Shown here piece by piece: positions 13,315 through 18,379 of a DNA stretch of 64,000 nucleotides (its first letter is position 1; every line of letters starts with the position of its first letter). Both the position numbers and the translations under genes were made by a program. The DNA comes from Halarcobacter bivalviorum (GTDB taxonomy: Bacteria; Campylobacterota; Campylobacteria; Campylobacterales; Arcobacteraceae): the NCBI RefSeq assembly GCF_003346815.1, contig NZ_CP031217.1, forward strand, positions 1,178,001-1,242,000. Reading direction: 5' to 3'. The notes under the pieces are model-generated. The model was given only the letters and a program-made list of their open reading frames with translations, made no database searches and was not told where the DNA came from.

Positions 13315-13383
13315 AACTAACGTTTGAAATGAGCCAATAAATTAGCCGCAGGGTAATTTATTGGCTCCACTGATTTGTTATAC
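13315..13383 (-). repeat. attC site 5 (distal end of array)
   Basis: Read on the minus strand: R'' GTATAAC, then a perfect 14-bp stem (GAGCCAATAAATTA with its complement) around CCGCAGGG, and R' GTTAGTT. The R'' extended by four bases (GTATGTATAAC) is the exact complement of the first bases of its own cassette after the G/TT cut, GTTATACATAC at the attC4 junction. The diverging R' (GTTAGTT rather than GTTATRY) marks the end of the array. Confidence 0.88.
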
Positions 13384-13386
13384 ATA

Positions 13387-14301
13387 CTATGTGATTTTTA
13401 ATCCTATTCTATCGTTATCAATATAAATCTCTTCATTACTATCATATAAAAAAGGTTCTGTATGACTGTTCAAACCTTCTTTTGAATATTTTTCTATGCT
13501 CTTCGGTAAAACTAACTTAAATCGATTGTGATGAAGTAAATCATGAAAAAAATATCTAAAAGTTCTATTATAATGTCCATCAATAAAATTTGAAGATAAA
13601 ATATCTATTTCATAAAAATTTTCATCTTTATATTCTACTTCTTTGTAATCTGCATAATCTAAAAAATTCATTATTCCAGAGTAATATCTCTTGGTTATTT
13701 CTGATAATAATTCTTCATCAAATGGAATATTTGCATTATATGGGTCATGATATTTACATTTTACTTTATCGTATAAATTATAAGACACACTTGCTACAGT
13801 AAAATTCACTGGGATAGCGCCAGCTTGAGACTGATTTTTATGACTGAACATATCATTTACAGAGTTTTTTGTATAACCTTTTGCTTCAATTGCAAAAGTT
13901 TCATTATTTGTAAAAGCTAATAAATCAGGACGGCTTCCAGATATTCGCATATTTTTTATTTTCATAGCAGCCTCATAATTAACTGTATGAAGAGCTTTGT
14001 CTAATTTTTTTGCTAAAAAATCAGCTATTCCTTTTCCTACAATATTGGAAAACTGTCCTTTTTCTGTAGGGTCATATAAATTATGAGGAGGTAATGAAAA
14101 TTTGTCTTTATTTAAAGCATTAGATTGTAAAAAATAACTATATTGTAGGAACATTCCAATTGTTTTAAATATTTTTTTTGAAGTTGGAGCATATCTTTGT
14201 CCTACGATAGCCATATGTTTAACTAATCCAAGTTTGGATATATAATGATTTTGATTTGACATACTCCCATATTTATCTAAATATTCTACTTCAATATTCA
14301 A
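13387..14301 (-). CDS. Integron cassette 5: PD-(D/E)XK nuclease-like protein
   Basis: 304 residues of unknown family. SRPDLLAF then, after a strand, FAIEAKG gives Pro125-Asp126-X12-Glu139-X-Lys141, the metal-binding core of restriction-endonuclease-like folds; Glu110 could be the upstream acid. This pattern suggests a DNA-cleaving or DNA-binding role, possibly antiphage, but that is inference. The start is TTG at 14301, preceded by AAAGGA and lying only about 20 bases inside the cassette boundary. The stop abuts attC5. No methyltransferase or other partner lies in the same cassette. No signal peptide or membrane segment. Confidence 0.7.
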   Translation of the reverse strand: MNIEVEYLDKYGSMSNQNHYISKLGLVKHMAIVGQRYAPTSKKIFKTIGMFLQYSYFLQSNALNKDKFSLPPHNLYDPTEKGQFSNIVGKGIADFLAKKLDKALHTVNYEAAMKIKNMRISGSRPDLLAFTNNETFAIEAKGYTKNSVNDMFSHKNQSQAGAIPVNFTVASVSYNLYDKVKCKYHDPYNANIPFDEELLSEITKRYYSGIMNFLDYADYKEVEYKDENFYEIDILSSNFIDGHYNRTFRYFFHDLLHHNRFKLVLPKSIEKYSKEGLNSHTEPFLYDSNEEIYIDNDRIGLKIT

Positions 14302-14319: not shown

Positions 14320-14388
14320 GTATAACGTTTAAGTTGAGAAATATTTGAGCCGCAGGGTCAAATATTTCTCTCCAATAATTTGTTATAT
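14320..14388 (-). repeat. attC site 4
   Basis: Minus strand: R'' ATATAAC, a perfect 13-bp stem (GAGAAATATTTGA with its complement) around GCCGCAGGG, R' GTTATAC. The stem sequence differs from the other sites but stays fully paired, so structure rather than sequence is conserved. R'' extended (TTATATAAC) exactly complements the cassette start GTTATATAA at the attC3 junction. Confidence 0.9.
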
Positions 14389-14393
14389 AATTA

Positions 14394-14951
14394 TCATTTT
14401 TTTTTATTTAATAGATTCTTTTTTCTTTGTTCAAAATAGTTTGTATTAGATTGATACTTATCTTTTATAATGGATACTTTAATAAGAGAATACATAAGAA
14501 CGAATATAACTAAAAAAGGTAAAAATAGTTGCAACATATAGACAGTGTAAAACTCTAATTCAGTACCAACCGTACTTAAATATAATGCAATTCCAAAAAG
14601 TGTAAAAATATAAAATCTTGAATAACGATACAAATCATTACAAGTATAATTTCTAAAATCTTTTTTAATAAAATATTTATAATACACAATAAATCTAAAA
14701 AATGCAAAGACAATTGCACTTAAAATGAGCACTATATATCCTGCAAACGTAAAATGGTTAAATAATGGGTCTTGTGATAACGTACCATTTATAATAATTG
14801 CAATTATTAAAGATAAACCAAAATACAATGGATGCCCAAACACCATAATAAAAACTAAAAAATAATTAAGTAATTTATTTGAATATTTGTACTTTTTCAG
14901 CACTATGTCTAATAAAATACCTGAAAAAAATAAAAGAATAAAATATTTCAA
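14394..14951 (-). CDS. Integron cassette 4: polytopic membrane protein of unknown function
   Basis: 185 residues, strongly hydrophobic with about five to six membrane segments (roughly 2-17, 26-56, 68-95, 113-128, 133-159) and a Lys-rich C-terminal tail expected in the cytoplasm. I do not recognise a family. Start is TTG at 14951 with AAAGG eight bases upstream, right after the attC3 recombination core. The stop lies six bases before attC4. Membrane-only small proteins are frequent cargo of chromosomal integrons; an effector role in defence or stress would be speculation. Confidence 0.75.
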   Translation of the reverse strand: MKYFILLFFSGILLDIVLKKYKYSNKLLNYFLVFIMVFGHPLYFGLSLIIAIIINGTLSQDPLFNHFTFAGYIVLILSAIVFAFFRFIVYYKYFIKKDFRNYTCNDLYRYSRFYIFTLFGIALYLSTVGTELEFYTVYMLQLFLPFLVIFVLMYSLIKVSIIKDKYQSNTNYFEQRKKNLLNKKK

Positions 14952-14964
14952 TCAATTTGCCTTT

Positions 14965-15033
14965 ATATAACGTTTAAAATGAGCCAATGAATTGCCCGCA
15001 GGGTAATTTATTGGCTCCACTGATTTGTTATAC
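14965..15033 (-). repeat. attC site 3
   Basis: Minus strand: R'' GTATAAC, 13-bp stem with one G-T pair around GCCCGCAGGGT, R' GTTATAT. Extended R'' TTGTATAAC exactly complements the start of its cassette, GTTATACAA at the attC2 junction. Confidence 0.9.
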
Positions 15034-15040
15034 AATCTTC

Positions 15041-15802
15041 TTAATGTTTTAAACGACGCTTTAATTTAACTGGAAGTGATATGCCTATTATTAGGTCTTG
15101 ATGCACACTTCCCCAAAATCTACTATCATTACTATGATCTCTATTATCACCAATCATAAAACATTCATTGTTTGGTACAGTAATTAAATCACTATCAAAT
15201 AATTGAGGAACATTATTACTTTTTTTTGTAACATCTAAATCATAATGTATTCCATTATATTGTTTTTTATATGGTTCTTTAACAAATATTTTCTGCTGTA
15301 TAGTTTCAGTTTTATAACCTTTATAATTCTTTTTAACGAATTCATTACCTTCAACTGGATGAAAATATAATGCCTTATCCTTTAAAAATATAACATCACC
15401 TCCTGTTGCCATACACCTTTTTAAATATATTGTTTTTTTATCTTTAGGGTAATAAAAGGCAAAAACACCTCCCCGAAATAATCTATTTATGCCTTTGAAT
15501 ACAAAAACTGATTCATTTTTATATATTGTGTTTTCCATGGCTTTTGTTGGAATACTTTTAACTTGAATTTCAACTTGATTATCTAACATATAATAAAAAT
15601 ATTTATGAAAATATTTTGTTAAATTAGGGTCATCCTCAAAAGCAATTTTATTATCTTTATCAACAAATATCCACCTTTGATCTATTGGTTTTGTTAGATT
15701 ATTTGTTGCAGTTATTAAATCATCATAGTTTTTGATATATATATCATTCCCAAAAACAAAATTGATGAGAACCATAAGAGTCATTATTATTTTTAAGTTC
15801 AT
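15041..15802 (-). CDS. Integron cassette 3: signal peptidase I-like protein lacking the nucleophilic serine
   Basis: 253 residues with the S26 signal peptidase layout. Box B reads IPTKAMENTI where active enzymes have a pattern like IPSGSMEPTL, so the nucleophilic Ser position is Ala88 (codon GCC). Box D keeps the general-base Lys as Lys128 in YLKRCMATGGD, and box E is intact as GDNRDHSNDSRFWG (218-231). The N-terminus (to about residue 18, VLINFVFG) looks like a cleavable signal peptide rather than the usual membrane anchor. The fold is probably kept while classical proteolysis is lost; a substrate-binding or inhibitory role is possible. AAGGAAATTTAA precedes the ATG. Confidence 0.85.
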   Translation of the reverse strand: MNLKIIMTLMVLINFVFGNDIYIKNYDDLITATNNLTKPIDQRWIFVDKDNKIAFEDDPNLTKYFHKYFYYMLDNQVEIQVKSIPTKAMENTIYKNESVFVFKGINRLFRGGVFAFYYPKDKKTIYLKRCMATGGDVIFLKDKALYFHPVEGNEFVKKNYKGYKTETIQQKIFVKEPYKKQYNGIHYDLDVTKKSNNVPQLFDSDLITVPNNECFMIGDNRDHSNDSRFWGSVHQDLIIGISLPVKLKRRLKH

Positions 15803-15814
15803 TTAAATTTCCTT

Positions 15815-15883
15815 GTATAACGTTTAAAATGAGCCAATAAATTGCCCGCAGGGTAATTTATTGGTTCCACTGATTTGTTATGT
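15815..15883 (-). repeat. attC site 2
   Basis: Minus strand: R'' ACATAAC, 13-bp stem with one wobble pair around GCCCGCAGGGT, R' GTTATAC. R'' exactly complements the start of its own cassette, GTTATGT at the attC1 junction, and not its own linear R' (GTTATAC). Confidence 0.9.
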
Positions 15884-15904
15884 AAGTGGAGATACCACCA
15901 CATG

Positions 15905-16555
15905 CTAATTGTCTATCCAATGACCATGATAAAATATTTCTAAATATTTCGTAAGATCATTACTGTTTTGATGAGAATGTTGTGTAATTAGTAGTAAAGC
16001 TTTTTCTTCCATTTCTTTAATACTGCCTTTAAGCTCTTTTAGCACCATGTCGGGGAAAAAATGCTCAATATCATAATTCAATAAATCAATAACTTTGCAT
16101 TGTTTTAAATGTACGCATTTTTTGAATTCGGATAAAAAATTAGCTATCAAATACTTCTTTAGTCTTTTGATTTGTTTGTGGGTATAAATGTTTTCCAGTT
16201 CTGTCATTTTGGAATAATGTATTTGATTTTGGGAAAGCTTTGAAAAGATTTTTTTTTCAGTATCGGGTATTCTTCTAACTAATATTTGGTGTATCGGATT
16301 TTTTCGAAGTAAATCACACTGTTCTGGATGATTAATACAATCATTTTGAACATGCTTAAATATCTCTTTGTAGTATTTTTCTACGAAACCGTCTATCTTA
16401 ATAAGCTCCTCGATTCTTTTGATCACTTTAAGATGTAATCTTTGTAGATTGTACTTTAATGAGTGTAGCTTATCTTGTTTCTGGTTTTCCCGAAATTTTT
16501 TGTACGCAAAATATACAACAACAGTCAACAAAGCAATCGTCAGAATTTTTATCAT
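15905..16555 (-). CDS. Integron cassette 2: membrane-anchored protein of unknown function
   Basis: 216 residues. One N-terminal hydrophobic helix (about 2-17, IKILTIALLTVVVYFAY) followed by a Lys/Arg/Gln-rich, mostly helical region; this looks like an anchored protein with a large soluble domain. Five cysteines (Cys73, 80 and others) are scattered and form no known motif. I do not recognise a family. AAAGG lies seven bases before the ATG, directly after the attC1 recombination core. Charged helical composition would fit a coiled-coil interaction protein, but there is no direct functional evidence. Confidence 0.72.
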   Translation of the reverse strand: MIKILTIALLTVVVYFAYKKFRENQKQDKLHSLKYNLQRLHLKVIKRIEELIKIDGFVEKYYKEIFKHVQNDCINHPEQCDLLRKNPIHQILVRRIPDTEKKIFSKLSQNQIHYSKMTELENIYTHKQIKRLKKYLIANFLSEFKKCVHLKQCKVIDLLNYDIEHFFPDMVLKELKGSIKEMEEKALLLITQHSHQNSNDLTKYLEIFYHGHWIDN

Positions 16556-16569
16556 ATGTTAACCTTTTT

Positions 16570-16639
16570 ACATAACGTTTAAAATGAGCCAATAAATTTT
16601 CCGCAGGGTAATTTATTTCTCTCCAATGTTTTGTTGTAT
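16570..16639 (-). repeat. attC site 1 (proximal to intI), mosaic
   Basis: Minus strand: R'' ATACAAC, R' GTTATGT. One half (ATTGGAGAGAAAT) matches attC4 and the other (ATTTATTGGCTCATTTTAAAC) matches attC2/3/5, so the stem is interrupted: eight A/T pairs, then a mismatch, then GAG/CTC. Extended R'' AGATACAAC is the exact complement of the cassette start GTTGTATCT at the attI junction (17158-17166). The cassette 1 stop codon TAG lies inside the extended R''. Confidence 0.85.
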
Positions 16640-17155
16640 CTATATTATTATGTGTTCATATTTAGAATTTATATTTTCCAAAAAACTATTCATATCATTA
16701 GATATTGGAGATTCTATTAAAAAATTACCAAACTTTTCTTCTAACTTATTCCAATTCTTTTTTAGATTCCCTCTGTTTCTAAAAAAAGGATGAAGCCAAA
16801 TCCATTTAAGAACCCAGCGATCAGGTTCTTTTGTAAACTTTTGAATAGCAAAGGTACAAGCTCCATAAATACGATATGGCATTGGTTCTTCTATAAATTT
16901 ATCAAGAGCTTGTTCTGTGAATAGTAAAGCTTTATATTCTTCTTTCAAATCACCATATGAACAAAAGGGCACAAAATCATAGTTAAGTTCTTCTTTAAAA
17001 TATTTTGCAAGTTTATAAACTTCTTCAAATAGTTCTTTTTCGGATTGTTTGTCTACTTCTATAATAGTGTCTAATGTATATTTTGTAGATACTGATAATT
17101 CCAGTGTATAGTTTCTCACTTTAATTTCCTCGTCTATAAACTTTAGTTTCATCAT
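16640..17155 (-). CDS. Integron cassette 1: GNAT-like acetyltransferase-related protein
   Basis: 171 residues. The C-terminal half has WVLKWIWLHPFFRNRGNLKK followed by FGNFLIESPIS and a final FLENINSKY. This resembles the acetyl-CoA pyrophosphate loop (HPxxRxRG) and end strands of GNAT acetyltransferases, though the N-terminal part is not obviously GNAT. The ATG-ATG start is only about nine bases from the recombination point, with no ribosome site inside the cassette. Translation must use attI-side leader sequence or begin near the transcript end. First cassette positions are the most expressed in integrons. Substrate unknown. Confidence 0.6.
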   Translation of the reverse strand: MMKLKFIDEEIKVRNYTLELSVSTKYTLDTIIEVDKQSEKELFEEVYKLAKYFKEELNYDFVPFCSYGDLKEEYKALLFTEQALDKFIEEPMPYRIYGACTFAIQKFTKEPDRWVLKWIWLHPFFRNRGNLKKNWNKLEEKFGNFLIESPISNDMNSFLENINSKYEHIII

Positions 17156-17416
17156 AGATACAACTATTTATTGAATATACATTATATAAATAAAGTACTT
17201 AAATCCACTTATTTATTATATATTTATTAAAAAGCTTATTTTATGCATACTTATAGAAAAAATATTACAAAATACAATAATTTTTCTATATATTTTTATT
17301 ATAAGTTATAATTTTTATGTTTATTTTATGTCATATTTAGAACTTTAGTATACATAATGTATGTTAAAAGTGAAAAATTTAACTTTAAAAAACATTTTTA
17401 TAATTTAGGAGATATT
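17156..17416. promoter_or_regulatory. attI region with candidate cassette promoter and intI leader
   Basis: The attI-cassette crossover lies at the GTT of minus-strand GTTGTATC (17159-17166). A minus-strand TATAAT (17181-17186) lies about 15 bases before it and is a candidate cassette promoter Pc; its -35 is not convincing. Upstream of intI, ATACATAATGTAT at 17350-17362 is a 13-bp palindrome in the expected operator/promoter position, possibly for SOS-type control, though no LexA box consensus can be asserted. The rest is extremely AT-rich. Confidence 0.55.
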
Positions 17417-18379
17417 ATGGGTAAAAAACTACTTGATATAATGAGAGATAAAATCAGAGTAAAACACTATAGTTTAAAAACTGAAAATGTATACATATAT
17501 TGGGCAAAAAAATATATTCTATTTCATAATAAAAGACATCCTAATACTATGGGTAAAAAAGAGATTGAAGAGTATTTAACTTATCTAGCCAAAAATCTAA
17601 ATGTATCTCCTACTACACAGAACCAAGCCTTTTACTCCATTGTATTTCTTTACGAACAAGTATTAAACATATCATTAAAAAATGAAAATATTCAAGCTTT
17701 AAGAGCTCAAGAAAGAAAACATATTCCTGTAGTTTTAACTATAGATGAAGTCAAAAGTATTATATTAAATATGGCGGGTATTTATCAACTTATAGTTAAA
17801 CTTATGTATGGTTGTGGTTTAAGGATGAAGGAAGTACAAAATATTCGTATCAAAGATATTGATTTTGGATTCGATAAAATTTATGTTTGGGATAGTAAAT
17901 CTTTAAAAGATAGAACTATCCCTTTACCACAAAGTATAAAAAATGAACTCCAAATACAAACTCAAAAAGTAAAAGAATTACATCAAAGGGATTTATCTGA
18001 TGGCTTTGGTAGTGTTTATATTCCATATGCTTTAAGTAAAAAGTTTAAAAATATTGAATATGATACAAAATGGCAATATGTTTTTCCTATGAGTAAAATC
18101 TCAAAAGACCCTAGAACAGGTAAACAAAGAAGGCATCATATTTTAGATGTAACTCTAAGTCGAAATATAAAAAATGCAGTTAAAAAATCAAATATAGATA
18201 AAAGAGTTACATCACATATTTTTAGACACTCTTATGCAACTCATCTTTTACAAAATGGTACAGATATAAGAAGTATACAAGAACTACTAGGACATAAATC
18301 TATAGAAACAACTATGATATATACACACGTTGTGAAAGAATTAAATAAAGGTGATATTAAATCACCATTGGATTTTTAA
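17417..18379 (+). CDS. intI: Integron integrase
   Basis: 320 residues, normal IntI length. Tyrosine-recombinase catalytic residues are Arg136 (CGLRMKEV), His267 and Arg270 ([12 protein letters not shown]), His293 (LLGHKS) and Tyr302 (TTMIYTHV). The IntI-specific extra segment before the second box is present: [13 protein letters not shown] then [23 protein letters not shown]. The C-terminus ends [10 protein letters not shown], like the RSPLD end of known IntI proteins. The ATG at 17417 has TTTAGGAGATATT before it and is chosen over an in-frame ATG at 17357. It recombines attC cassettes, folded on one strand, with attI. It appears intact. Confidence 0.95.

Follow-up and report, generated by a model that had tools for sequence, protein, structure and literature searches.

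The window analysed here is a stretch of 64,000 nucleotides (positions 1178001-1242000) of the Halarcobacter bivalviorum genome, which is represented by a single contig of 2,684,688 bases and is 99.98% complete. It contains a chromosomal integron with an intact integrase gene, intI (17357..18379, plus strand), the product of which matches TIGR02249 at 395.2 bits (395.3 on a repeat search) against a cut-off of 265. Five cassettes adjoin intI, and the third of them carries a signal peptidase I-like gene (15041..15802, minus strand) bounded on each side by an attC-like site. These sites, recognized by their repeats and predicted fold, all lie on the minus strand, at 16573..16639 (first cassette), 15816..15884 (upstream of the signal peptidase-like gene, at the end of the preceding cassette), 14966..15034 (downstream of it), 14321..14389 (fourth cassette) and 13318..13384 (fifth cassette). 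Their TAACG motifs are found at 16573, 15818, 14968, 14323 and 13318, with bottom-strand hairpin z-scores of -1.49, -4.19, -3.42, -5.67 and -5.22, respectively. The first of these sites has the weakest fold and is not significant, 17 of 200 shuffles folding equally well; the two that flank the gene of interest form bottom-strand hairpins of the attC kind on both of its sides. The sequence-only reading had placed this gene in a mobile cassette, a description that the five attC-like repeats and the adjoining intact intI now make precise as an integron gene cassette.

The remaining cassette genes, all on the minus strand, provide little functional context. None of the four matched a family in Pfam or NCBIfam (E 0.001) or in PADLOC (0.01): the first (16640..17155), the second (15905..16555), the fourth (14394..14951), which appears membrane-protein-like by eye, and the fifth (13387..14301), for which the profile search gave a sub-threshold NERD match (E 0.11). 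The fifth contains RPDLLA...IEAKG, presumably resembling a PD-(D/E)xK nuclease motif, and may serve in defence or restriction; searches of viral contigs returned no relatives of it. No PADLOC defence family was detected in the seven proteins examined, no Rfam family reached its gathering score between 12500 and 19000, and a promoter scan yielded 29 sites against 34.2 in shuffled sequences, hence no excess.

The signal peptidase-like gene is preceded by a Shine-Dalgarno-like AAGGA (15810..15814, minus strand), read from the sequence 7 bases 5' of the ATG, and runs for 253 codons with no internal stops. Its product is a peptidase S26 homologue, with similarity far above chance: it scores 87.8 bits (E 1e-24; cut-off 22.9 bits) against Pfam Peptidase_S26 (PF10502) and 90.9 bits (cut-off 47) against NCBIfam sigpep_I_bact (TIGR02227). 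Like LepB, it has the S26 core, the general-base lysine of box D (Lys128, in YLKRC; 15419..15421, minus strand), whose column is invariant in the S26 alignment, and an intact box E, GDNRDHSNDSRFWG (residues 218-231; 15110..15151, minus strand), of the form GDNRDxSxDSRFWG. Unlike LepB, it lacks the nucleophilic serine that defines an enzymatic signal peptidase I. Box B (residues 84-93; 15524..15553, minus strand) reads IPTKAMENTI, and the nucleophile position is occupied by alanine (Ala88), encoded by GCC (15539..15541, minus strand). Alignment and translation thus bear out what had been read from the letters, namely an alanine codon at the nucleophile of box B, with boxes D and E intact. The protein differs from LepB also in being integron-borne, in having boxes B and D joined by a shorter loop, and in an extra N-terminal region. 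A housekeeping LepB with the motif PSGSM is encoded elsewhere in the same genome.

A further difference from LepB concerns the membrane anchor expected directly before box B. Over the 30 residues that precede this box, the maximum 17-residue hydropathy is -0.01 in the window protein and 2.99 in the LepB of the same genome. The hydrophobic maximum of the window protein (1.94) falls instead on residues 1-17, within a signal-peptide-like N-terminus (residues 1-18; 15749..15802, minus strand) for which a cleavage point just after VFG is a guess. These values fit the earlier proposal of a signal peptide rather than an anchor, and we infer from them that the protein is probably exported as a soluble periplasmic species. 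The place of the LepB anchor is taken, according to alignment and profile searches, by a region spanning residues 20-83 (15554..15745, minus strand). A query covering residues 18-84 gave strong matches in only three of 104 genomes of the family (the window's own, G088 and G089), and in one of 397 genomes sampled across the phylum at E 1e-4, again the window's own. Six further family genomes gave matches at E 0.0017-0.0097, one of them with stops, which were judged to be due to chance.

An Ala-bearing signal peptidase cassette is thus real, and it is uncommon. Among 42 distinct S26 domains from family and order loci, the nucleophile residue is Ser in 41 and Ala in the window protein alone, as scored by a script that accepted only these two residues, the loci being the best matches to the window protein (query P0001) rather than a random draw. 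A wider set of 53 distinct domains gives 52 Ser and one Ala; since its 11 viral rows were gathered partly with a pattern that excludes Ala, 41 of 42 is the meaningful figure. Error in sequencing or assembly at codon 88, or a variant private to this isolate, might be suspected from an observation made in one genome, where a change of a single base would convert TCC to GCC; we consider it very improbable. The genome is a complete-looking assembly in one contig, and, in comparison with the closest relative described below, codons 86-88 (ACA AAA GCC in the window, AGC GGA AGT in the relative) differ at seven of nine bases, which exceeds any single miscall, with only residue 88 being the nucleophile position. 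In the codon alignment with that relative, these are the most diverged three consecutive codons of the gene. The codon at the nucleophile is AGT or AGC in 35 of the 42 family and order rows, TCN in six and GCC in one; the relative's AGT is three bases from GCC. A longer path that ended in one step from TCC to GCC is possible; both codons are rare locally, GCC accounting for 7 of 197 Ala codons and TCC for 4 of 241 Ser codons in nine ORFs of the window.

S26 matches as such are nearly universal in the family, occurring at E <=1e-20 in 101 of 104 genomes (own included), and most genomes have a single one, 43-56% identical and LepB-sized, with box B read in those that were fetched. Close relatives of the window protein, in contrast, were found in the same 104 genomes only in G088 (locus L006) and G089 (L005). 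These are 66% identical to it over residues 8-250, share its N-terminal region, with a hydropathy peak before box B that in L005 is likewise -0.01, and also lie between attC-like sites, with intact intI genes on other contigs of both genomes. They differ in retaining the serine (PSGSM, within LPSGSMKNTI) and in carrying MORN_2 repeats N-terminal of the shared region, eight stretches in L006 and seven in L005, preceded by a signal-peptide-like start of their own. The two Ser-bearing cassettes (L005:1350-2830 and L006:1105-2680) match over about 1.44 kb, with a single base and one MORN repeat unit of 72 bases distinguishing the genes, and a single base the attC sites. On either side the identity stops at an attC core, beyond which the surroundings differ, and this is direct evidence that the Ser version of the cassette has moved. 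No second copy of the window's own cassette was found. One attC-start pattern occurs eight times in G088, 17 times in G089 and once in G000, counts that are lower bounds, as the pattern catches only one of the five sites in the window.

The sequence-only reading had raised the question of whether Ala is fixed among homologues. It is not: the one close cassette, present in two genomes, has Ser, and a lone Ala sequence provides no basis for judging fixation. What stands of that reading is an altered, probably exported signal peptidase homologue in an integron cassette; Ala as a fixed trait of a family does not. Homologues with Ser had also been named as the sign of recent inactivation, and they exist, yet this account is incomplete, because box B differs from the relative at three consecutive residues and seven of nine bases. 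Such divergence, with the conserved core largely kept, need not be explained by a single recent hit. The most serious competing explanation, which we regard as a substantial possibility somewhat short of an even chance, is that an accessory cassette lost its catalytic serine by drift in a weakly expressed position and is now a functionless passenger in decay. It is favoured by the presence of Ser in the only close relatives and the lone example of Ala, by a promoter signal that does not rise above shuffled sequence, and by the proximity of GCC to TCC, one substitution having been sufficient if the lineage used a TCN codon, as six of 42 sequences do. The far commoner AGY codons (35 of 42), and the three-base distance of the relative's AGT, argue against so short a path, and the intact frame, in which Lys128 and box E are kept, argues against decay. 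Recent inactivation would, however, look much like the observed pattern.

Several measures of constraint bear on this choice. Between the window gene and the Ser relative (codons 20-253), pairwise dN is 0.20 and dS 0.85, a ratio that blends periods before and after loss of the serine and so indicates purifying selection at some time, without dating that loss. Departures were also counted at those sites that do not vary among the 39 LepBs fetched and that the relative preserves: the window protein departs at four of six such sites in box B (S86T, G87K, S88A and K90E) and at two of 41 elsewhere (Fisher p 0.0012), with the reservation that box B was preselected by the finding, although it also emerges as the worst 10-residue stretch. 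At 90% conservation the corresponding counts are four of seven and five of 54 (p 0.0068), and the relative's own departures show one of three in box B and one of 40 elsewhere (p 0.14). An earlier count, in which departures common to the relative were left in, had given no significant excess in box B (four of seven versus 18 of 58, p 0.21; also p 0.47). Taken together, these comparisons indicate a core that is kept and a box B that is altered, and, of the 41 sites outside box B that are invariant in LepB and preserved in the relative, 39 are preserved here too, which speaks against a decaying passenger. Against this stands the phylogeny. The window and relative cassette proteins form one clade (support 100/100) inside a Campylobacterota LepB group (91/85, not strong), its placement within that group being left unsettled by the midpoint-rooted tree, and within the clade the window branch is the longer (0.59 versus 0.15), as would be expected of a passenger; this could reflect relaxed constraint. 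By parsimony, departures confined to the window protein and to the relative number 14 and 11 at the loosest threshold (p 0.69), nine and two at sites conserved at >=90% (p 0.065), and six and two at invariant sites (p 0.29), so that the window copy may have evolved faster, although this is not firm.

A structural model from a 3-row alignment had a mean pLDDT of 35.9, and one from 13 rows reached 57.2, with residues 1-98, box B included, below 50 and without a resolved cleft. In the Foldseek search signal peptidases rank first (E 5.6e-7, TM 0.38), arylomycin-bound signal peptidases appear by entry title, and a SipA chain is found at rank 22; because the TM was only 0.38, the match was not used to interpret the active site. 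Retention of Lys128 and of the whole of box E, together with a threonine (Thr86) two residues before Ala88, might suggest that the protein is still a peptidase in which Thr86, or another serine brought to Lys128, serves as the nucleophile. This seems to us improbable. Thr86 aligns with Ser88 of LepB, whose side chain is implicated in stabilizing the tetrahedral intermediate, a water molecule occupying that place in SpsB (PMC4704075); its role is that of the oxyanion site, not of the nucleophile.

Loss of the serine should abolish the Ser-Lys dyad, and the reading we prefer, to which we assign a probability of about 0.45, is that a cassette has spread an exported, accessory signal peptidase and that the version in the window is now a non-catalytic, peptide-binding pseudoenzyme. 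The protein would be unable to cleave, while its peptide-binding S26 core, with Lys128 and box E, would have stayed under constraint. If functional, it would bind and hold signal-peptide-like ligands uncut, candidates being the ends of pre-proteins, cleaved signal peptides or inhibitors of signal peptidase, and normal processing would be carried out by the housekeeping LepB. We narrowly favour this proposal over a passenger because of two precedents. First, the S36A catalytic mutant of SpsB has been crystallised, and peptides bound by this enzyme are held in the cleft through main-chain beta-sheet hydrogen bonds, in complexes that had the native Ser36 (PMC4704075); substitution of Ser by Ala need not, by this analogy, abolish binding. 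Second, SipA of Streptococcus pyogenes is described as having a signal peptidase fold without the dyad, with the cleft kept, and as essential for pilus polymerisation (PMC4049620). The window protein resembles SipA in combining the S26 fold with absence of the catalytic Ser. It differs in that only the Ser of the dyad is lost, Lys being retained where SipA has none; in the absence of an anchor, SipA having a transmembrane helix; and in its setting, as the four fellow cassette genes match no family, in contrast to the pilus role of SipA. The same sole Ala sequence, Ser-bearing nearest relatives and longer branch that suit a passenger weigh against a pseudoenzyme, as does the third place in the array, for which weak expression from the Pc promoter is predicted. 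The binding, blocking or decoy action that had been proposed from the letters alone is possible.

A more specific extension would be that integrons spread soluble periplasmic signal peptidase cassettes, the Ala version of which traps signal peptides or arylomycin-type antibiotics uncut and thereby shields LepB. We consider this unlikely, and the inhibitor-trap idea is speculation by analogy with integron-borne accessory peptide deformylases and deformylase inhibitors: the tested deformylase cassettes gave inhibitor resistance, strongly so in one case (PMC12690207). The two situations are alike in that a homologue of an essential enzyme occurs as an integron cassette alongside a chromosomal housekeeping copy; the window protein differs in having no nucleophile. 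Mobile cassettes that carry homologues of essential export enzymes would widen the known cargo of integrons, and a natural Ser-to-Ala signal peptidase would offer a ready-made trap for finding ligands, with the Ser relative as its natural comparison. Among the literature matches listed, no title described a signal peptidase carried by an integron, and, among the best 12 of 14 matches, none described a signal peptidase pseudoenzyme with Ser replaced by Ala.

Searches of other sequence compartments returned only distant homologues. Phages gave one weak match (28.3% identity), and viral contigs gave no relative with query P0001 and, with alignment A1, three S26 matches of 24-30% identity. All 110 plasmid records were below 60% identity and none covered 80% of the query; among the matches listed (best 30 of 110), 28 of 30 were annotated lepB. 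A scan of a genome collection found two ordinary LepBs only, its exact 8-residue patterns being blind to relatives like that of L005 and thus saying nothing on absence. Within the family, G032 carries a different accessory S26 protein (L007:1441-2355) with several hydrophobic segments and a retained serine (PANSM), which groups in the tree with the LepB of the same genome (100/98).

Two minor observations concern the surroundings of these genes. The alignment with the relative extends into the signal-peptide region of the window gene (window 15755-15781, L005:2206-2229), where T..V.INF is common to that region and to the L005 linker 3' of the MORN repeats; this faint resemblance raises the possibility that the signal peptide of the window protein formed in situ once the repeats were lost. 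In other genomes of the genus, integrase matches are split or interrupted in G057, G060 and G068 and full-length in G059, G062 and G067, which suggests possible decay of the integron in some members of the genus.
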